Source of the DNA: an uncultured Eubacteriales bacterium
Lineage (GTDB): Bacteria > Bacillota > Clostridia > Oscillospirales > Oscillospiraceae
Direction of reading: 5' to 3'
Length of the DNA stretch: 38,170 nucleotides
Assembly: GCA_900319465.1 (NCBI GenBank)
Contig: ONOL01000019.1
Location: 1-38,170, forward strand
Positions 4,803 through 38,170 of this stretch are shown here, one piece after another (within the stretch, counting starts at the first letter, position 1; each line of letters begins with the position of its first letter). Below the pieces are notes generated by a model. It was not told where the DNA came from and ran no database searches. It saw only the letters and a list, made by a program, of their open reading frames with translations. The position numbers and the translations under genes were made by a program.

Positions 4803-4872
4803 GTTATTTGGGTCTGTGCGGCCCGCCATTACAATGCGTGTGCGGCTCTCCACCTTTCAGCCGTATGCAGCT

Positions 4873-4999
4873 TAAAAAAGGAGGAAAAGGTAAGGCCCGT
4901 GGCTCGGGCTGCGGCAGTGTGGAGACCTGTCGCAATGCGTGCGGCGAAAGCCCTCGCGAGCCTATCCGCGCGGAGGCGGGATAGGCAGAGCCGGAAAAC
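4873..4999 (+). promoter_or_regulatory. Unassigned leader with a stranded strong Shine-Dalgarno and a start-proximal hairpin
   Basis: AAAAAAGGAGGAAAAGG at 4873-4889 is a near-perfect ribosome binding site, but the ABC ATPase starts 110 bases later at 5000, where only a weak GCCGGAAAAC precedes the ATG. Just before that ATG an 8-bp perfect stem (4960-4967 with 4979-4986, GCCTATCC/GGATAGGC) could affect initiation. A GTG at 4899 after the strong site opens a frame that runs into the ATPase gene without a stop until 5267, so a leader peptide is not convincing. I do not recognise any named riboswitch. Confidence 0.35.
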
Positions 5000-6108
5000 A
5001 TGGCAACTGTCCAACTCAAGAACATCAAGAAAGTCTACCCCTTCATCAGCGGCGAGCAGAAAAAGAAGAAAAAGAAAGGCGAGGAGCCGGAAAAGAAGAA
5101 GGTCAATCTCCAGATCACCGACGAGGGCGTCGTCGCGGTGCAGGAGTTCAACCTCGACATCGCCGACAAGGAGTTCATCGTGCTGGTCGGCCCCTCCGGC
5201 TGCGGCAAGTCCACCACCCTGCGCATGGTCGCGGGTCTCGAGGAGATCTCCGGCGGCGAGCTGCTGATCGACGGCAAGGTCATGAACGACGTAGCGCCCA
5301 AAGACCGCGACATCGCCATGGTTTTCCAGAACTACGCCCTTTACCCCCACATGACCGTGTATGAGAACATGGCCTTCTCCCTGAAGCTCCGCAAGGAACC
5401 CAAGGACGTCATTGACAAGAAAGTCCGCGAGGCGGCCGAGATCCTCGACATCACCCAGTACCTCGAGCGCAAGCCCAAGGCCCTCTCCGGCGGCCAGCGC
5501 CAGCGCGTCGCCATCGGCCGCGCGATCGTGCGCGACCCGAAGGTCATGCTGATGGACGAGCCGCTCTCCAACCTCGACGCGAAGCTCCGCAACGAGATGC
5601 GCGCCGAGATCATCAAGCTGCGCAAGCGCATCAACACCACCTTCATCTACGTCACGCACGACCAGACCGAGGCCATGACGCTCGGCGACCGCATCGTCAT
5701 CATGCGCGACGGCTACATCCAGCAGATCGGCACGCCGCAGGACGTGTTCAACCACCCCGCGAACCTGTTCGTGGCCGGCTTCATCGGCATGCCCGTCATG
5801 AACTTCTTCGACGCGAAGCTCATCCGTGAGGACAAAAAGTTCTTCGTCGAGCTGGGCGGCTACAAGGTGGAGCTCCCGAGCACACCGACGTGTCCGACGA
5901 GGGCGTGGCCGCGAAGGTCGACGTCAGCGAGATGATGGGCTCTTCCGTGCACCTGCACGTGAGCGCCGAGGACCGCGACGTGATCATCATCGTCCCGACC
6001 ATCGACATGAAGGGCAACTACAACATCGGCGACACCGTGCACTTCTCCTTCAAGGGCAACGTCGCCCATGTATTCAGCAAGGAGACCGAGAAGAACCTCG
6101 AGTTCTGA
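5000..6108 (+). pseudogene. ugpC: Sugar ABC transporter ATP-binding protein (UgpC/MsmK/MalK type), frame broken by an internal deletion
   Basis: It would energise CUT1-type uptake of sugars or glycerol phosphate, often serving several permeases. The ABC domain is intact: Walker [12 protein letters not shown]-loop [10 protein letters not shown], signature [14 protein letters not shown], Walker [12 protein letters not shown]-loop YVTHDQ. Between strand 1 ([14 protein letters not shown]) and [11 protein letters not shown] is a lysine-rich insert of about 27 residues. The C-terminal MOP-like domain breaks at 5875-5880: after GGYKVELP the frame is lost and the open frame ends at 5935 with junk. 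The true C-terminus ([20 protein letters not shown] ... KETEKNLEF) resumes one frame away from 5878 to 6108. The family's GVRPEH motif is missing except for EH, so roughly 25-30 codons appear deleted. No permease or binding-protein gene is nearby. Confidence 0.85.
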
Positions 6109-13146: not shown

Positions 13147-15810
13147 TTACTTTTTCTTCTTGTGGAAGAGGAGCCAGCCGCCGGCGCCGACTGCGCCGAG
13201 GCTGATCACAGCCAGCGCCGCATACAGCGCGACAGGCGCTTCGTCGCCGGTCTTCGGGGCGCCGGAGCTGCTGCCGCCGCCGGAGCCGCCGTTGTTATAG
13301 GAGCTGCTGCCCTTCTGCCAGGCGGCGTAAAGCGTCACGTTGCCGCCTTTGATCTTGACGTTATTGCCCGCGTAGTAGGCGGCGGCGCCGTTGCGGCTGA
13401 CCGCCCAGCCCAGGAAGGTGTAGCCGTTGCGGGTGGGTACGCCGAAGGTGATGGTCAGCGTGACGGTATCGTTTTCATCGCTGACCCCGCTCTGCGCCGC
13501 GGGCGCGCCGCTGCCGCCGTTGGCGTTATAGTACAGCGTATAGGTCGGGTTCTCTTTCCAGACCGCGTAGAGCACCGTGTCCTTCGTGACCAGGATGTCC
13601 TGCTGGGACTTCTTGGAGGAATTGTACTTATACTCGGCCTCCGTGGCCTTCGCGTCCTTGCTCCAGCCCTGGAAGGTGTGGTACTTCAGCGTGGGCTCCT
13701 GCTCGGGGATGTCGATGCTCACGCCCACGTCCGCCTTGGCCGCAGCCAGGATGGGGGCGGGCGCGCCGCTGCCGCCGTTGGCGTCGAAGCTCAGCTCCAC
13801 AAGGCGCTGGGTCACGTCGGCGACGCCGTCCTCGTTCTCGTCATAGCCGTAGACCGCGTAGACGGTGCGCATCACGTCCGCAATGCCGATGTCCAGCGTT
13901 GTGACCGTTGCGGGCGCGGTATCCTTGCGGGAATACAGGGTCTTGTCCTGCGTTTCGGACCAGCCGATAAAGACCACAGGCTTGCCGTTGGCGTCGGCGT
14001 GGGTGGGTACGGTCTCCGTATCCAGCACGTAGCCGGTCTGGGCGGAGACGAGCTTCGACGCCGGCGCGCCCTCGCCGCCGTTGGCGTCGTAGACCAGCGT
14101 GACCGTCGGGACAGGGAGCAGCTTGGTCTTGGCTTCCTTCTCCACGATGCCGGTCGCATAGTCCTTGGTCTTGCCGCCGATGTTGAAGCTCAGGCTGTCG
14201 ACCTTGCCGCGGGAGACCAGAAAATCGTTGAAATCCTGCTCGGTAAAGCTCGTCACGGGCAGGCGGCCGACACAGGTGAAGGTGAAGGGCTCGCCCAGCT
14301 CGCTCACGTGGTTTTTCCAGTCGTCCGCCAGCTCGAACTTCAGCGTGATCTGGCGGGTGCCGGGCTGCTCCTGGGCGTCGGAGAGGCGGAAGATCTTGCT
14401 GGTGAAGGTGTAATCCACGGTATCCTCGTCCGTAAGCTTGAAGGACATGCGGTTGTCAAGCGTCACGGTGAGGCTGCCGGTGGCGGAATTCACACTGTCT
14501 TTCGCGGCGCTGATCACCTTGACCAGCGAGTCTGAGAGCTGCATCTTCATCGTGTAGGTGAGCCGGTAGGGGATCACGCCGAGATACAGCTCCTCCTTGT
14601 CCACCGTCCAGGTCAGGCCGCTGTCGGAGCCGTCGCCGCCGGTGAGGCCGCCGAGGCCGTCGATCCCGCTGATCTCACCCGCGCCGGACGTGCTGAACGC
14701 CTCGATGCTGCCCTCCTGCAGGATTCCGCCGCCCTCGCCGTCCTGTTCGCCGCCGGCGGGCTCGCCCGCCGTCTGGCCGGCGTTTTCCTCAGGATCGGGA
14801 TTTCCTTCCGGCTCCGTATTTTCCTGCTGGCCGTCCGCAGGCGCGCCGTCCTCTTCGGGCTCCGCGCTGTCTGCGGGCGCATCGTTCTCCTCGGGCTCCG
14901 CGTTTTCTTCGGGTTCCCCGTTTTCTTCCGGCTCCGCGTTCTGCTCAGGCTCCGCGTCCTGGCGGTAATGGCCGGCGACGACGGCCTTGCTGCCGATGCG
15001 CACCTGATCGGGGCTGTCGGCGCTGATCGCCTTGAGACCCTCCGGCGCGTCGACGACGCCGGTATCCTTCACGCTGCAGCCGTCCTCCACGGTGAGCGTG
15101 GAGCCGCCGTCCACGCGGACGGCGGACAGGCCGCCGAAGTTGAGAAGCTCGGTGCCGGGATTCAGAACCAGCACGGAGCCGCCGTACACGGCGATGATGG
15201 CGTCCTGCACGCGCTCCTCGTTGCTCTCGCCCTCGCCGGGCTGCATGACCTGCGGCAGGTACTCGCTGCCCTCATGGGCGCCGCAGTCGTTGAGGATCAC
15301 GCTGTCAACGCTCAGGCGCGCGGGGGCGGCGCCCTGCAGGTCGCCCACCTCGATCATGGCGGGGTTGTAGCTGCCGCGCAGGGCGTCGCGCGCCTTGGCA
15401 AACTCGGCGCTGCGCGAAAGCATGCAGGCGCCCTCGTTGCTCATCAGGATCACGTTTTTGCCCAGGAAGCGGGCGGTGCTGCCGACCGTCAGATCGCTCA
15501 GGAGGATGACGTAAACCGTATTTTCCTGCGCGGCGTTGGCCGCCTCGGCCGCCGCCGCGAGCGTGGCCAGGGGCTTTGCCTCGCTGCCGTCGTTCCCGTC
15601 GCTGCCGGCAGCGGAGACAAAGATCTCGCGCGACTTCTCCGCGCCCAGCTCGGCGGCGTCCAGCGTGCCGGCCGGGGCGTCCTTCGCCCCGAGGATCTCC
15701 TGCGGTTCCGCGCCGCTGATGGTCCCTTCCGCCAGCGCGGGGAGCGCCAGACTCAGCAGCATGGCGAGCACAAACACGAAGGACAGGGTGCGGCGCAGCT
15801 TAGTGGTCAT
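13147..15810 (-). CDS. Large sortase-type surface protein: beta-helix region, Glu/Pro-rich linker, InlB-type repeats
   Basis: An 887-residue secreted protein. The signal peptide is about 1-28 (MTTKLRRTLSFVFVLAMLLS...ALA). About 60-270 is rich in V/G/T repeats such as GGSVLVLNPGTELLNFGG and GGSTLTVEDGCSV, typical of a right-handed beta-helix. A linker of about 285-365 repeats AEPEEN/GEPEEN units. Beyond a domain of unknown type (about 380-560) come three Listeria-Bacteroides (InlB B/Flg_new) repeats, each opening with YDANGG, FDANGG or YNANGG followed by xGAPA. The end APKTGDEAP, a hydrophobic stretch and KKKK form a variant sortase signal (A in place of L). The ATG at 15810 is chosen for GGAGG 7 bases upstream. 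Adhesion or glycan contact is plausible but unproven; no sortase is nearby. Confidence 0.9.
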   Translation of the reverse strand: MTTKLRRTLSFVFVLAMLLSLALPALAEGTISGAEPQEILGAKDAPAGTLDAAELGAEKSREIFVSAAGSDGNDGSEAKPLATLAAAAEAANAAQENTVYVILLSDLTVGSTARFLGKNVILMSNEGACMLSRSAEFAKARDALRGSYNPAMIEVGDLQGAAPARLSVDSVILNDCGAHEGSEYLPQVMQPGEGESNEERVQDAIIAVYGGSVLVLNPGTELLNFGGLSAVRVDGGSTLTVEDGCSVKDTGVVDAPEGLKAISADSPDQVRIGSKAVVAGHYRQDAEPEQNAEPEENGEPEENAEPEENDAPADSAEPEEDGAPADGQQENTEPEGNPDPEENAGQTAGEPAGGEQDGEGGGILQEGSIEAFSTSGAGEISGIDGLGGLTGGDGSDSGLTWTVDKEELYLGVIPYRLTYTMKMQLSDSLVKVISAAKDSVNSATGSLTVTLDNRMSFKLTDEDTVDYTFTSKIFRLSDAQEQPGTRQITLKFELADDWKNHVSELGEPFTFTCVGRLPVTSFTEQDFNDFLVSRGKVDSLSFNIGGKTKDYATGIVEKEAKTKLLPVPTVTLVYDANGGEGAPASKLVSAQTGYVLDTETVPTHADANGKPVVFIGWSETQDKTLYSRKDTAPATVTTLDIGIADVMRTVYAVYGYDENEDGVADVTQRLVELSFDANGGSGAPAPILAAAKADVGVSIDIPEQEPTLKYHTFQGWSKDAKATEAEYKYNSSKKSQQDILVTKDTVLYAVWKENPTYTLYYNANGGSGAPAAQSGVSDENDTVTLTITFGVPTRNGYTFLGWAVSRNGAAAYYAGNNVKIKGGNVTLYAAWQKGSSSYNNGGSGGGSSSGAPKTGDEAPVALYAALAVISLGAVGAGGWLLFHKKKK

Positions 15811-15922
15811 AGGTATTCCTCCATACAAATCGCAAATCGCGGACAGGCCCGCAGATCGGCGAGATCGTTCTTGTGATAAAACAGTTGATGTTTTTATCGG
15901 AGACTACATTCCGTTACCATAT

Positions 15923-15973: not shown

Positions 15974-16036
15974 AAAAACGGCGGGCTTTCGCGGCGAGCG
16001 GCGCGGCGAGCGTCTGCGAAAGCAGGCCGGCCCGCC
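15974..16036 (-). terminator. Terminator at the end of the CotH-VTC operon
   Basis: On the minus strand GCTTTCGC...GCGAAAGC with an extended GGCGGGC/GCCCGCC arm (bulged) is followed by GTTTTTATT. It lies about 50 bases after the last stop of the operon. Confidence 0.65.
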
Positions 16037-16087
16037 CGCGGGGCGATCCCGCAGGCAGGCCGGCGCCTGTCTTCTTTCCGTATTTGC

Positions 16088-17395
16088 TCAGCGCACCGTC
16101 AGGCTGTAACCCCGGTCCTCGACCTGAACGGCGAAGGTCTCGCCCGTGCGCAGGGAGGAGGAAGCGTAAAGCAGCACCCGGAAGCTCTGCGGCACGATGA
16201 TGGTATCCATGCCGAGCAGGAGCCGCTCGTCCTTCGCGCCTTCGATGTCGGCCATCACGTAGGCCGGGCCGCCCGCGTCGGGCCGTCTCTGCTTGTCGGA
16301 ATTGCTCAGCGCCAACAGCTCGCCCCCGAGCGAGAGCCTGCCCTCGGCCTTCAGCGCCTGTCCGGCGGCCGAAACGAAGAGGCTGCCGCCGGTAATCTCG
16401 ATATCGCCCGCGCCGCTGTCCTTGACGCCGCTCTGCACGCCGGTGGAAGCGATGATGCTCACGCTGCCGCCGCTCAAGCGGATATTGCCGTCACAGCGCA
16501 GGCCGTCCTCGTCCGCGCGGACGGAGACGCTGCCGCCGGTGACGCTCAGAAGCGTCCCCGCCTTGAGCCCCTTGCGGCTGCCATTGCTCACCAGGTCCTG
16601 GCGGCTCTCGGTCTGCAGCGAGCCGCCCGTGACGCGCAGCTCGCCGACCGCGTCGACGCCGTCCCCGCCGCTGCGGATGCTGACGCTGCCGTCGGTGAGC
16701 TCGATAAAGCCCTTGCCTTCCTTCGCGGCGGAGCTGGTCTTGAGCCCGTCGTTCCCGGCCGTGACGGAGAGCGTCCCGCCGGTGACCGTGAGGGACTCCG
16801 AGGCGCGCACGCCGTTATTCGCGCTCAGCACCGTGATCGCGCCGCCCTTGATCTTCAGATCGTCCTTGCAGGTGATGCCGTTGTTGAGGTAGCCGCGCAC
16901 GGTGAGGCTCCCGCCGCCCTCAAAGCTGAGGTCGTCCTCGGAAAAGATCGCCGCGCCGCTGCGGTTTTCGTCCGCCGCGGCGAGATCCGCCTCCGTGCCG
17001 GAGGTCAGGACGTTCTCGCTGTCCCGGGCAAGCACCACATGCACGTTCTTCGCCTGCCTGACCAGGATGGCCGGGCCTGCGGAATTGCTGATCTGCGCCC
17101 CGTCGAGCACCAGCGTCACGTCCACCTTGTCCTCGCCGGTATCCACGACGATCTGGCCGTCGTCGAGCGTGCCGGAGATCCGGTACTCGCCGACCGCGCC
17201 GATGGTAACCACGCTGCCGCTCACGCTCGCGCCGCCGCCCTTCACCTCCGCGCCGCTGCCGGTGAGCGTGACGGCGACGCCGCTGTCCCTGTCCTGCTCC
17301 TGCCCGCTTTCGCCGGCGAGGGGGCTTTGCAGCCTGCCGCAGGCACACAGGAACAGCAGGCACAGCCCCAGCGCCGTAAGAATCCCTTTTTTCAT
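16088..17395 (-). CDS. Carbohydrate-binding beta-helix lipoprotein (Cthe_2159-like)
   Basis: A 435-residue lipoprotein with a lipobox LCAC (lipidated Cys about 19). The rest is a repetitive G/S/V pattern of short strands (ISGTLDDGQIVVDTG, LTVRGYLNNGITCKDDLKI, LTVTGGTLSVTAGNDGLKT, VTGGSVSVRADEDGLRCDG), as in the Cthe_2159 family (PF14262), whose studied member binds cellulose and pectin-like polymers. The ATG at 17395 overlaps the upstream stop as TGATG with AGGGAG 8 bases before; a GTG at 17398 adds one residue. It is the last gene of the CotH/VTC/DUF4956 operon, so it may be the surface-exposed part or the substrate of that system. The fold assignment is fairly sure; ligand unknown. Confidence 0.85.
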   Translation of the reverse strand: MKKGILTALGLCLLFLCACGRLQSPLAGESGQEQDRDSGVAVTLTGSGAEVKGGGASVSGSVVTIGAVGEYRISGTLDDGQIVVDTGEDKVDVTLVLDGAQISNSAGPAILVRQAKNVHVVLARDSENVLTSGTEADLAAADENRSGAAIFSEDDLSFEGGGSLTVRGYLNNGITCKDDLKIKGGAITVLSANNGVRASESLTVTGGTLSVTAGNDGLKTSSAAKEGKGFIELTDGSVSIRSGGDGVDAVGELRVTGGSLQTESRQDLVSNGSRKGLKAGTLLSVTGGSVSVRADEDGLRCDGNIRLSGGSVSIIASTGVQSGVKDSGAGDIEITGGSLFVSAAGQALKAEGRLSLGGELLALSNSDKQRRPDAGGPAYVMADIEGAKDERLLLGMDTIIVPQSFRVLLYASSSLRTGETFAVQVEDRGYSLTVR

Positions 17396-18057
17396 CACAT
17401 CAGCTCCCTGTCTTCGTCGCGGCCGCAGGAGATGTTCAGATTGCCGTTGCGGCAGCGGATGGCGTCGATGAACTCCTTGCTGCGCGCCGGCTCCTTCAGC
17501 TCGACGGCGTAGGTCAGCTCATAGAGCGTGCCCATGTTGGTGGTGCGCACCTTGACGAGCTCGTGGTGCGCCGTGTATTCCCGGAACAGGTCGTCGAACA
17601 GCGCGTCATACTCCAGGTTCTCGGGGATGGTGATCTTCAGCACGCGGGAAACGCCGCCCTCCTCGCCGAAGCGGAAGCGGCCGAGGGCGAGCGCGTAGAC
17701 GGCCATCACGAGGAAGAACAGCGCCGCGTAGCCCACGTAGCCCATGCCGCAGGCGATGCCGATGGCCACGGAGAAGAACAGCGCCGTGATCTCCTTGGCG
17801 CTGCCGGGCGCGCTGCGGAAGCGCACGAGCGCAAAGGTGCCGGCCACGGCCAGCCCCGCGCCGATGTTGCCGTTGACCAGCATGATGACCATGGCCACCA
17901 CCGGCGGCAGCAGCGCCAGCGACTGGCGGAAGGCCGCGGAATGGCGGTCCCGCCCGGCAAAGACCAGGGCGGCCAGCAGGCCGAGGACCATGGCCGTGAA
18001 GATGCAGAGCAGGAAGGAGAGAACGCTCATCTCTCCGCCGATGATGCTGTTAAGCAT
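17395..18057 (-). CDS. DUF4956 membrane protein
   Basis: A 220-residue integral membrane protein of a family with no established function. About four hydrophobic segments fill residues 10-35, 45-80 (with NGNIGAGLAVAGTFALVRFRSAPG, the conserved loop) and 95-130; the C-terminal 90 residues are a soluble domain (VLKITIPENLEYDALFDDLFREY...). The G-rich FALVRFRSAPGSAKEI stretch is the family's most conserved part. The start ATG at 18057 follows GAGGTG and overlaps the end of the VTC gene by 8 bases. DUF4956 genes commonly sit next to VTC-domain genes, which suggests a membrane partner for polyphosphate or a related polymer. Confidence 0.88.
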   Translation of the reverse strand: MLNSIIGGEMSVLSFLLCIFTAMVLGLLAALVFAGRDRHSAAFRQSLALLPPVVAMVIMLVNGNIGAGLAVAGTFALVRFRSAPGSAKEITALFFSVAIGIACGMGYVGYAALFFLVMAVYALALGRFRFGEEGGVSRVLKITIPENLEYDALFDDLFREYTAHHELVKVRTTNMGTLYELTYAVELKEPARSKEFIDAIRCRNGNLNISCGRDEDRELM

Positions 18058-18769
18058 GTTGCGTCACCTCGAACAGTTCTTGTAGAATGTGGTTTTTGTA
18101 TGCCGTGCCGTACTTGGAAAAGCTGGTGGGGAAGAGGCCCTCGTCGCTGAGCATCCGGGCGAGCCAGAGCGGCGCCGCCTGGGGCAGCTTGAGCTCCATG
18201 AGCACCTCGCCCGGCGCGGTCAGCGGCTCGCCGGTGCTGCCGGCGCAGAGATCCAGCTCCGTCTCCCGCCAGCGGAGGTTTTCATCAAAGGTGATGCGCA
18301 GCTCCGGATCCTCCCGCGCGCGCCAGGCCGTCCGCTCGCAGGCGATGAAGGCCCGCGGCGCCGGCGCGTTCTGGCGCAGGAACCAGTCGATCTCCCGCTC
18401 CATCTGCCCGTCCTCCGGGGGCTCTCCCCCGCCGGAGAGCCAGAGGGCCGCCTGCCGCGCAGGGGCCGTGACCCTGCGCTTGTACACCACGCCCTTGTAT
18501 TTCTTTTTGAGTTCCACGAACACCGGGTCCTCCGGGCCGGGGACGCCGTAGCTGCGCAGCCGCAGCTTCTCCTTGTAGACCGGGCCTTCGATCGAGTGCC
18601 GGATCAGGCGGCAGTCCGGCGTGTCGTAGTAAAGCGAGCACACCGTGCTGCGGAAGTACTCGTCCGGCTCGATCCGGGGCCGGAGCCGCTCCATCAGCAG
18701 CGCGCAGCGTTCGGCGGACAGGAGGTATTTCTTTTCGTATCGCTTGAAGCTGAGTCTCGTCTCTCCCAT
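18050..18769 (-). CDS. VTC-domain protein, predicted polyphosphate polymerase
   Basis: A 239-residue protein of the CYTH/VTC tunnel fold; in yeast the Vtc4 version makes polyphosphate from ATP. Expected basic and acidic tunnel residues are present: RYEKKYLL (10-17), SLYYDTPD (45-52), KLRLRSYG (68-75), VELKKKYKGVVYKRR (85-99), LRITFD (157-162), MELKL (191-195) and SFSKYGTAY (216-224). It is short, lacking SPX and membrane parts, so the neighbouring DUF4956 protein may supply the membrane anchor. I chose the ATG at 18769 (MGETRLSFKR), with GGAGAG 7 bases upstream; a TTG at 18784 is less likely. The gene starts 4 bases after the CotH stop. Activity is inferred from conserved residues. Confidence 0.9.
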   Translation of the reverse strand: MGETRLSFKRYEKKYLLSAERCALLMERLRPRIEPDEYFRSTVCSLYYDTPDCRLIRHSIEGPVYKEKLRLRSYGVPGPEDPVFVELKKKYKGVVYKRRVTAPARQAALWLSGGGEPPEDGQMEREIDWFLRQNAPAPRAFIACERTAWRAREDPELRITFDENLRWRETELDLCAGSTGEPLTAPGEVLMELKLPQAAPLWLARMLSDEGLFPTSFSKYGTAYKNHILQELFEVTQHA

Positions 18770-18773
18770 TGGG

Positions 18774-21206
18774 TCACTCTCCAAAATACGCCGCCCGCTC
18801 CTCGTCGGTCAGGAGCAGCTGCTGACAGATATGCTCGACGCAGGCGCGGTTCCACACGCCGTCGGCAAAGTAGCCGCAGAGCGCTTCCACGTCGGAATCC
18901 CATTTGGCCTTGAACATCCCGCGCAGGGCGTAGTCCCGCCCGATCTCCGGCTCCAGCTCGGCGGCGAGCCGCCGGATCTCCGCCGTCACGTTCTCCTCGG
19001 ACAGAACGCCGTTGAGAAGCTCCGCGAAGCGGCGCAGCATCCGGTCCCGGAAGTCCGGGTTCTGCAGCAGCGGGCGGACGAGGCAGTAGCTCACCTGCCG
19101 CGAGGTCAGCGCGGCGGGGCTGAGCATGTTGACAAAGGTCTTTTCCCTGTCCCAGAACGCGGCGTCCAGATCATAAAACATCAGGCGCCACTTTCCGTCG
19201 CCCTCGGTCGAGCGGACGTAGCGTACGTTGCCGTAGGTCAGATCCGTGTTGGCGGCGTAGCCCTCCAGCGCGACCCAGTCGATCACGCTGTCGATATCCA
19301 CGAGGGTCTGCACGTGCTCGTAGTTCTCGGGCACGGACAGGTCGTTCTCCGCGCAGTAGCGGAACAGCTCCCGGTACACGCTCTGGTACGAGGTCGCCTG
19401 GGACTCGATGACCTCGACGCTGTCCCTGCTCACGCCCATCAGATCGGCGTAGAGCTGCTCGTTGGTCTTTTCCATCAGGTTGTAAATGCCCCAGTACCTG
19501 CCGTTGAGGTAGAGCACGCAGAAGCGGCTGCGCCCGGTGACCGCCCGGTTGCCCGCCTGCAGGCACAGGTTCTGGCAGGCGGCGTTTTTCACGCCGGTAA
19601 AGAAATAGTCCTGCCCGGCCCGCAGCACGAGGCTGGTGAAGGAGCTGATCCCGCCCCCGTAAACGTCGAAGTCGAGCTTTTCCTGCCCGTAGACCGGGCG
19701 GAAGCGCACGCTCATGTTCTTCTTTTCCAGCTCCAGGCTCGTCTCCCCGTGCATGCGCACGCCGCAGGGGATCGAAAAGCCGCCGTCCGGCGCGTAGAGC
19801 GACAGCGAGGCGGGCAGCTCCCGCCCCTTGGCGCCGCCGTAGTACATCCAGTTAAACTCCTGCACGCTGTCGGAGGCGAGGCTCAGCACGGGCAGCGTAT
19901 GCCCCTCATTGACGATGTAGGTGAACACGGCCGGGCGGCTGGGCAGCGCGCCTTCCTCCAGCGCGACCGCGCGCACCACCGTGGTCTTGTCCACAGAGAA
20001 GGGCGCCTCATAGCGCTCGCCCGCCGTACCGGGCGCGCCGTCCCCCACGGTGTAGAAGATCTCGCCCTTTGCCGCAAGCGCCACGGGCACAGACTCCACG
20101 CCCTCAAACACGCCGTCCGGCGCGAGCAGGACGGGCTGTTCGGAGACCCGGCGGCGGCCGTCCGCGTTCTCCCCGCCGGGCGAGGGGCTCGCGAAATAAA
20201 ACCACCCGTTCTCCCCCTCCATGCGGCCGAAGCTGCAGCCGTAGGGGATGCCCTGCAGGGATACATAGTCGAGCAGCGTCCCGTCCGTCTTGGACAGATA
20301 GAGCTGCTCGCTCCCGCTGTCGAGCGAGAAGCCGGCGGAGGGATCGATCAGGGCGTTGCTGTCCCACTCGTCGCAGCGGACGAGAAAGAACCCGCCCGGC
20401 GCCAGCGTCTTGTCCGGCAGGCGGAAGCGGCCGGGCTCGGCCGCGTTGTCGGACAGACAGAAGTCGGAGAGCCTGAGATCGCCGTCCGACACGTTTTTCA
20501 GCTCCACCCAGTCGCTGGAGTACAGGCGCCAGGCGTCGCTGCCCGGGTTGTAGACGCAGACCTCCGTGATCACGAGGGGGCTCTCGGCGACGAGCGTCTC
20601 CTGCCGGCCGTCGTAGCCCTCCCGGGTGTTCGGCCAGCCGGGCGTGGGGTACGCCGTCTCGGCGTATTCGCCGTCCTCCCCGAGCGCGACCGCCCGGTCG
20701 GCCGTGCCGCTCAGGCACGGGGCGGCGGAGAGCACCCGGCCGAGGGGGTCGACGAGCAGCACGCGCTCCCCCTCGGACAGGGAGAAGTCCGCGTGCCCCT
20801 CCTCGGGGCGGTCCTTGCCGGAGGCCCAGCAGACGCGCCGGTCGCCCGGGGCGAGGACCCCGAAGAGGGCGAGTCCCTCCCGCCCCTCCTTCTCGGTCAG
20901 GCGGAAGCCTGTCAGCTCCACCGGGGTCTCGCCGTAGTTTTCGATTTCGATCCAGTCGGAAAAATCGCCGTCCGCGTCCCGCAACACCGCGCGGTTTTTC
21001 ACCATCAGCTCCGAGATGCGCAGGCACGCCCGTTCCGGCTCGGCCGTCGCTTCCGGCGCGGCGGACGGCGCGGGGGCGGCCGTCCGGGAGGGCGCGGGCG
21101 TTTCCGCCGTTTCGGCGGGCAGCCGGCTCTCCCCGCAGCCCGAGAGCAGGAGGCCCAGCAGGACGAGCAGGGAAAGATATTGTCTGAATTTGGGGGATAA
21201 AGACAT
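18774..21206 (-). CDS. CotH-like kinase lipoprotein with lamin-tail domains
   Basis: An 810-residue exported protein. The lipobox LSGC puts the lipidated Cys at 24, followed by a P/A/T-rich spacer. Two lamin-tail-like domains follow (about 60-160, RISELMVKN...SDWIEIENYG; about 200-310, ITEVCVYNPG...SDWVELKNVSDG), then a chitobiase-C-like beta domain (about 350-425). The CotH domain (about 440-790) shows VRMHGETS, VLYLNGRYWGIYNLMEK, NTDLTYGNVRYVR and KWRLMFYDLDAAFWD, which match the kinase motifs of spore-coat CotH (atypical secreted protein kinases). The ATG at 21206 is chosen for AGGAG 6 bases upstream. First gene of a four-gene coupled operon. Secreted phosphorylation of a neighbour protein or a polymer-linked role is inference; many non-spore paralogues exist. 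Confidence 0.92.
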   Translation of the reverse strand: MSLSPKFRQYLSLLVLLGLLLSGCGESRLPAETAETPAPSRTAAPAPSAAPEATAEPERACLRISELMVKNRAVLRDADGDFSDWIEIENYGETPVELTGFRLTEKEGREGLALFGVLAPGDRRVCWASGKDRPEEGHADFSLSEGERVLLVDPLGRVLSAAPCLSGTADRAVALGEDGEYAETAYPTPGWPNTREGYDGRQETLVAESPLVITEVCVYNPGSDAWRLYSSDWVELKNVSDGDLRLSDFCLSDNAAEPGRFRLPDKTLAPGGFFLVRCDEWDSNALIDPSAGFSLDSGSEQLYLSKTDGTLLDYVSLQGIPYGCSFGRMEGENGWFYFASPSPGGENADGRRRVSEQPVLLAPDGVFEGVESVPVALAAKGEIFYTVGDGAPGTAGERYEAPFSVDKTTVVRAVALEEGALPSRPAVFTYIVNEGHTLPVLSLASDSVQEFNWMYYGGAKGRELPASLSLYAPDGGFSIPCGVRMHGETSLELEKKNMSVRFRPVYGQEKLDFDVYGGGISSFTSLVLRAGQDYFFTGVKNAACQNLCLQAGNRAVTGRSRFCVLYLNGRYWGIYNLMEKTNEQLYADLMGVSRDSVEVIESQATSYQSVYRELFRYCAENDLSVPENYEHVQTLVDIDSVIDWVALEGYAANTDLTYGNVRYVRSTEGDGKWRLMFYDLDAAFWDREKTFVNMLSPAALTSRQVSYCLVRPLLQNPDFRDRMLRRFAELLNGVLSEENVTAEIRRLAAELEPEIGRDYALRGMFKAKWDSDVEALCGYFADGVWNRACVEHICQQLLLTDEERAAYFGE

Positions 21207-21239: not shown

Positions 21240-21269
21240 ATTATACTATAAAATGCCGCAAGGTGTCAA
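21240..21269 (-). promoter_or_regulatory. Near-consensus promoter of the CotH-VTC-DUF4956 operon
   Basis: On the minus strand TTGACA (21264-21269), 18 bp, TATAAT (21240-21245): both hexamers are perfect sigma-A consensus. It suggests strong vegetative transcription, not sporulation-sigma control. Confidence 0.8.
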
Positions 21270-38061: not shown

Positions 38062-38064
38062 GTG

Positions 38065-38170
<106 letters not shown>

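Follow-up and report, generated by a model that had tools for sequence, protein, structure and literature searches.

A constant VTC–DUF4956 gene pair with CotH and Cthe_2159 as mostly alternative partners: a possible surface polyphosphate module

What joins a CotH-type secreted kinase, a VTC domain protein, a DUF4956 membrane protein and a Cthe_2159-family lipoprotein in one operon? The question is raised by positions 16088–21206 of contig ONOL01000019.1 (assembly GCA_900319465.1), from an uncultured gut bacterium of the Eubacteriales (Oscillospiraceae); the whole 38,170-nt contig was analysed and is called the window below. The CotH (18774..21206), VTC (18050..18769), DUF4956 (17395..18057) and Cthe_2159 (16088..17395) genes follow one another on the minus strand with spacings of +4, −8 and −1 bases, and open reading frames (ORFs) together with Pfam matches confirm this layout as an earlier note, made from the letters of the sequence, had given it. 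That note treated the four genes as one unit, which did not hold. The core unit is the VTC–DUF4956 pair, constant in our sample, and CotH and Cthe_2159 are mostly alternative partners of it; the window has both.

The pairing was examined in 119 genomes drawn evenly across the phylum and in 14 control genomes. The same 15 of the 119 have VTC and DUF4956, each family with 21 hits and both with equal copy numbers in every genome; 20 of the 21 pairs are adjacent, and the last (in G062) lies at two contig ends. Both families also match in the same three of the 14 control genomes. Among 82 close loci (the 80 nearest VTC relatives, the window and the paralogous locus of the window's own genome), DUF4956 was found at 79, with the 8-base overlap in 60 of these. 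Both VTC genes of the window's genome adjoin DUF4956. A survey of the neighbourhood beyond close kin, proposed as a check in the earlier note, has thus been run: the gene set is conserved over the 82 close loci and the pair is constant across the phylum sample. No role has been assigned to the DUF4956 family; it now gains a firm partner, the two families being never apart in 119 phylum genomes.

The VTC protein of the window (Pfam, 7.7e-36) has a single VTC domain, with neither an SPX nor a membrane domain. Its model has the triphosphate-tunnel fold and is Vtc4-like, and the protein is predicted to be a polyphosphate polymerase. Residues K19, R75, R77, K93, K102, R151, R163, E197, S223 and K224 (244-aa ORF numbering) are kept in 53 of 53 VTC proteins, and the expected motifs KLRLR, MELKL and SKYGTAY were found in the translation. 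The basic residues of this set are what we take to be those of the Vtc4 tunnel, by positions counted on the alignment; S221 of the window, which is not basic, would presumably match Vtc4 K455. When we checked for a tunnel without its basic residues, the tunnel residues proved invariant. As a separate observation, in Clostridium thermocellum strains adapted to ethanol the VTC domain gene Clo1313_1989 is among the genes with weak evidence of convergent mutation (PMC10503014).

The DUF4956 protein (Pfam, 1.3e-13) has about five predicted membrane-spanning helices, whose predicted cytosolic side bears an invariant RFRS motif, and then a C-terminal domain. This domain, the part submitted to fold comparison, appears ACT/ferredoxin-like, with tied rows.

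The CotH start was placed at the ATG at 21206 because GGAG precedes it, the ATG of the mechanical ORF (21236) being too near the −10 box. The product has 810 aa, a lipobox signal peptide, two lamin-tail stretches (4.7e-21), an Fn3_assoc domain (5.1e-6) and a CotH kinase domain (3.9e-39, all by Pfam) in which the motif YDLDAAFW was found as claimed. All 73 distinct CotH frames keep the aligned D665, and 72 of them keep D689 (820-aa ORF numbering); the single miss is a gap in a fragment, and the window is present twice among the 74 alignment rows. We equated these residues by spacing, on an alignment of proteins without a solved structure, with D228 and D251 of Bacillus subtilis CotH, described as inactivating sites (PMC7821199). 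A CotH profile search against PDB sequences found no solved CotH, and phmmer searches of the same sequences with single VTC, CotH and DUF4956 proteins gave chance-level rows only. The Cthe_2159 protein matches the PF14262 beta-helix domain (4.6e-73) and PDB 4peu (2.8e-41). Since it and CotH both start with lipoprotein-type signals, the two should be surface lipoproteins, on the outward side of the cell membrane.

The secreted forms of CotH track the VTC pair. A CotH–VTC survey of 398 genomes from one phylum counted 64 with VTC and 56 with CotH, of which G176 fell below the cut-off, and yielded 74 CotH frames from 55 genomes after omission of G176, two short G245 pieces and the second pieces of split matches. 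Signal peptides were called by a hydrophobicity rule over every start in the first 150 codons, which is biased toward finding a signal. By this rule 63 of 64 CotH frames with an N-terminal signal are in VTC genomes, and 49 of 50 genomes with a secreted CotH have VTC, versus 15 of the 348 others. The genome-level statistic ignores kinship, and the safer figure is that by families, where secreted CotH occurs with VTC in 30 of 31. The exception is G072, whose genome is 93% complete and whose CotH is highly divergent. Unlinked copies show the pattern too: of the 22 secreted CotH genes situated on a different contig from VTC or more than 3 kb away, 21 belong to VTC genomes, and VTC is present in 11 of the 12 genomes that have unlinked secreted CotH only, although draft contigs may hide linkage. 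Among the controls, B. subtilis has a CotH match and no VTC match; C. glutamicum and M. acetivorans have both. Such a pattern could also come from a shared surface role without direct dependence.

The spore-coat CotH of B. subtilis, a product of the mother cell, has no signal peptide and about 360 aa. Eight of the nine signal-less CotH frames that could be judged form one clade of spore-coat size (support 100), and the 810-aa window CotH, with its lipobox signal, falls outside it; a spore-coat role is therefore rejected, as the earlier note had argued. In the same quick tree the window CotH belongs to a 23-row clade (support 99) containing 12 of the 22 unlinked CotH proteins, separate from a 35-row clade with most of the operon-linked ones. 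The window's own genome has a second, unlinked CotH gene on the minus strand at L150 (G000:C20:158000-171527).

How the two partners share the pair is seen from the surroundings of VTC. The 398 genomes hold 77 VTC genes, of which 41 have CotH within 3 kb (the window, with Cthe_2159 too, included) and 23 have Cthe_2159 near without CotH; Cthe_2159 was sought around part of the 41. Of the 119 sampled genomes, 14 have CotH, 13 of them with VTC, and 13 have Cthe_2159, nine of them with VTC and two of the four others below the cut-off. Three genomes (G022, G105 and G106) have VTC pairs of both kinds, one adjoined by CotH and another by Cthe_2159. At the 82 close loci both partners are found in 22, Cthe_2159 only in 47, CotH only in 3 and neither in 10, some of these on short contigs. 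A quick tree of 70 VTC proteins separates a 28-row clade (20 with Cthe_2159, 3 with CotH, 1 with both and 4 with none) from a 42-row clade (32 with CotH, 2 with Cthe_2159 and 8 with none) with support 99; the labels come partly from loci with a 1.5 kb flank, so 'none' is over-called.

The window VTC lies in the 28-row, Cthe-type clade, its CotH lies off the main operon-linked clade, the paralogous locus of its own genome is VTC–DUF4956–Cthe_2159 without CotH, and no CotH match was found upstream of VTC in two relatives, L016 and L018. The window operon is therefore best read, on these sequence comparisons, as a Cthe-type VTC–DUF4956–Cthe_2159 operon that gained a 5′ CotH; the VTC and CotH trees are unrooted, so the direction is one that we infer. 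Two frames ahead of VTC in these relatives were considered and rejected. A 1139-aa frame in L016 suggested a VTC-upstream fusion, but the part ahead of VTC appears to be intergenic and has a promoter-like site, and VTC is the sole Pfam match in the frame; a 985-aa 'gene' in L018 has no Pfam match and clusters with a frame antisense to the FAD gene of the window.

Taken together, these results are best explained, in our tentative view and with somewhat less than even confidence, by a VTC–DUF4956 pair that synthesises polyphosphate and transports it out of the cell, CotH and Cthe_2159 being its clients at the surface. VTC at the inner membrane face would polymerise phosphate from ATP, like yeast Vtc4. 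DUF4956, its dedicated membrane partner, would accept the growing chain at the basic RFRS entrance and pass it outward, as the membrane part of yeast VTC is thought to pass polyphosphate into the vacuole. The anionic polymer, or else a polysaccharide of the wall or matrix, would be bound by Cthe_2159, and the substrate of CotH would be a surface protein or sugar. From the surface phosphate-transfer system proposed in the earlier note, a VTC–DUF4956 membrane engine and two outside lipoproteins are retained, while synthesis, export and phosphate transfer are what we infer.

Several observations weigh against this reading. The model of the DUF4956 membrane part is moderate (pLDDT 79.9, with blocks of 54–67 over residues 61–90), and no convincing channel appeared among the Foldseek matches listed, the MmpL3 row having a probability of 0.25. 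A weak likeness to MgtC was found in 36 of 70 DUF4956 members with E values of at most 1 (0.0021 for the best), and we know of no passage of polymers by the MgtC family. PPK1 also occurs in 7 of the 15 VTC genomes, that of the window included (4.4e-20). Neither partner was found near 13 of the 77 VTC genes, of which one (G308:C2) is a fragment and several are near contig ends, and 6 of 10 signal-less CotH frames also occur in VTC genomes, one of the ten (G061:C21) being broken and not to be judged. To our knowledge, as the earlier note had said, no account treats all four genes together. However, three of the four, at SIR_1592-1594 of Streptococcus intermedius, have each been deleted: loss of DUF4956 raised Pel and reduced aggregation, loss of CotH reduced both, and for loss of VTC (SIR_1593) no change in Pel or aggregation is reported (PMC12345266). 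The VTC product is therefore not always required for the effect of the module.

The main rival is a regulatory or phosphate-homeostasis module, a possible but doubtful reading, in which DUF4956 is an MgtC/ACT-type sensor-regulator, VTC gives a local cytosolic polyphosphate signal without export, and this signal tunes the output of exopolysaccharide or surface protein. It would suit a DUF4956 deletion that raises Pel beside a VTC deletion that leaves it unchanged, as well as a weakly MgtC-like membrane part with an ACT-like C-terminus (rows tied). The window DUF4956 does not belong to MgtC PF02308 by score (E 0.65, 10.8 bits versus a cut-off of 31.4), and the ACT-like domain has no known ligand. 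Regulation is also favoured by OmpR-type response regulator and histidine kinase genes, which stand no more than 6 kb from VTC at 10 of 21 wider and 29 of 82 close loci; among the CotH-bearing close loci they occur at 1 of 25. What this reading leaves unexplained is that secreted CotH tracks VTC even when unlinked, with the signal-less clade less tied. Two-component genes near VTC–DUF4956 are often divergent, as at L243 (G022), L248 (G066), L250 (G298), L265 (G269) and others. RsgI-like proteins sense polysaccharides in cellulolytic clostridia, and an RsgI-like anti-sigma factor gene lies near some VTC loci (L060:8663-9922).

A bolder form of polyphosphate export makes the pair a synthase-exporter that feeds secreted CotH kinases outside the cell. 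Exported polymer would supply phosphoanhydride energy where there is little or no ATP, the signal-less spore-coat line, near mother-cell ATP, would be the sole CotH line free of the pair, and Cthe_2159, a calcium-binding beta-helix protein, would hold the polymer via calcium. The signal-peptide pattern fits this idea and the silent VTC deletion weakens it, and we consider it unlikely. The question of which phosphate donor a secreted bacterial kinase uses becomes directly testable, as secreted CotH and the VTC pair share genomes even where unlinked. A purple acid phosphatase gene divergent from the VTC–DUF4956–CotH operon of G022 (L244:9663-10907) could reverse surface phosphorylation.

Less probable again is an exopolysaccharide accessory module, in which CotH phosphorylates a Pel-like or other synthase-dependent polysaccharide or the proteins that go with it, with the VTC pair aiding export. 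The three families CotH, polyphosphate polymerase and DUF4956 have been known as neighbours of Gram-positive pel operons since 2020 (PMC7112168), and their arrangement was later said not to be found outside the Pel locus (PMC12345266). This confinement is not borne out by our sample, since CotH lies within 3 kb of VTC and DUF4956 in 10 of 119 genomes and 9 of these 10 have no PelG, the sole pel gene searched in these draft genomes. PelG was found in 1 of 15 VTC genomes, G105, where it is followed by two CotH genes, VTC and DUF4956, an arrangement in keeping with the accessory reading; it was not found in the window's genome, a draft 88.5% complete in which PelG alone was sought. Confinement to Pel loci is rejected on these grounds, and the published claim is now qualified. 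G006 has GT2, leucine-rich and DHHW/AlgX-like genes ahead of VTC–DUF4956–CotH, and the C. perfringens NELoc-2 locus has a glycosyltransferase and a polysaccharide deacetylase (PMC2879425, PMC11677781), both consistent with work on a polymer; the window operon has no glycosyltransferase, and the pair often occurs with Cthe_2159 and without CotH.

Cytosolic storage, with VTC as a second polyphosphate synthase among unrelated passengers, would suit the Vtc4-like active site and the 8 of 15 VTC genomes in which PPK1 was not found, but it is improbable given the constant pairing with a membrane protein and the 64 of 77 VTC genes near CotH or Cthe_2159. That VTC makes or cleaves some other product, by another tunnel-enzyme reaction on triphosphates, is the least probable reading, as all nine yeast Vtc rows rank first by a clear margin and the Vtc4 basic residue set is kept.

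The operon is preceded by a sigma-A-type promoter, TTGACA-18-TATAAT (21240..21269, minus strand). The near-consensus promoter of the earlier note is in fact a 12/12 match, and both hexamers are identical in the window and five aligned relatives, taken from 24 other CotH-bearing close loci; a scan found four sites scoring at least 9/12 in 7.5 kb, versus a shuffle mean of 0.3. The single terminator also claimed needs correction. A strong GC-rich hairpin (16017..16069, minus strand) lies immediately past the last stop codon, its 91-nt fold reaching −52.1 kcal/mol (z −4.0), but a U tract is missing and the scan does not score the hairpin as a terminator. The next gene past the operon (13147–15828, minus strand) encodes a cell-wall protein of 893 aa that carries Listeria-Bacteroides repeats and a sorting signal of the sortase B type. 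Elsewhere the window holds a malK-I cis-regulatory RNA (4830–5005, plus strand; 134.4 bits versus a cut-off of 60.3) and, at the contig end, a partial 5S rRNA (38063–38170, minus strand; 69.1 bits).

Among known systems, the yeast VTC complex (Vtc4/Vtc3/Vtc1), which synthesises and translocates polyphosphate (PMC10657179), shares the tunnel fold and residues and a polymerase linked to a membrane part. It differs in that the membrane partner of the window is a separate DUF4956 protein, and that the far side would here be the cell exterior, in yeast the vacuole. If true, export by the pair would give bacteria a way of placing polyphosphate on their surface. Among the papers listed or read in part, mostly outside subscription journals and with preprints excluded, we found no account of this route, of bacterial VTC export, of polyphosphate as a secreted-kinase donor or of Cthe_2159 with the VTC–DUF4956 module. 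B. subtilis CotH shares the domain and, judged by spacing, its catalytic and metal aspartates; the window CotH differs in being a lipoprotein, in its lamin-tail domains and in its place beyond the signal-less clade. C. perfringens NELoc-2 (PMC2879425, PMC11677781) has a VTC-'tubulin'-resolvase-VTC-'tubulin'-CotH cluster. There VTC adjoins a membrane protein of DUF4956 size (222–226 aa), CotH follows, and past two further genes stands a glycosyltransferase gene; the 'tubulin' genes are presumably DUF4956. It differs in a duplicated pair with a resolvase between, with no Cthe_2159 named in the text consulted. The closest parallel is the accessory set of Gram-positive pelDEADAFG operons (S. intermedius SIR_1594-1592), where the same three families stand side by side with a secreted CotH and DUF4956 is called MgtC plus ACT (PMC12345266). 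The three genes are likewise contiguous in the window, in the CotH–VTC–DUF4956 order of the Pel papers; most of the other eight sampled genomes that have the three genes and no PelG show VTC–DUF4956–CotH. In S. intermedius DUF4832 follows, in the window Cthe_2159, and the window also differs in that PelG was not found in its genome and, on trees drawn without the streptococcal proteins themselves, in a VTC of the Cthe clade and in a CotH outside the main operon-linked clade.

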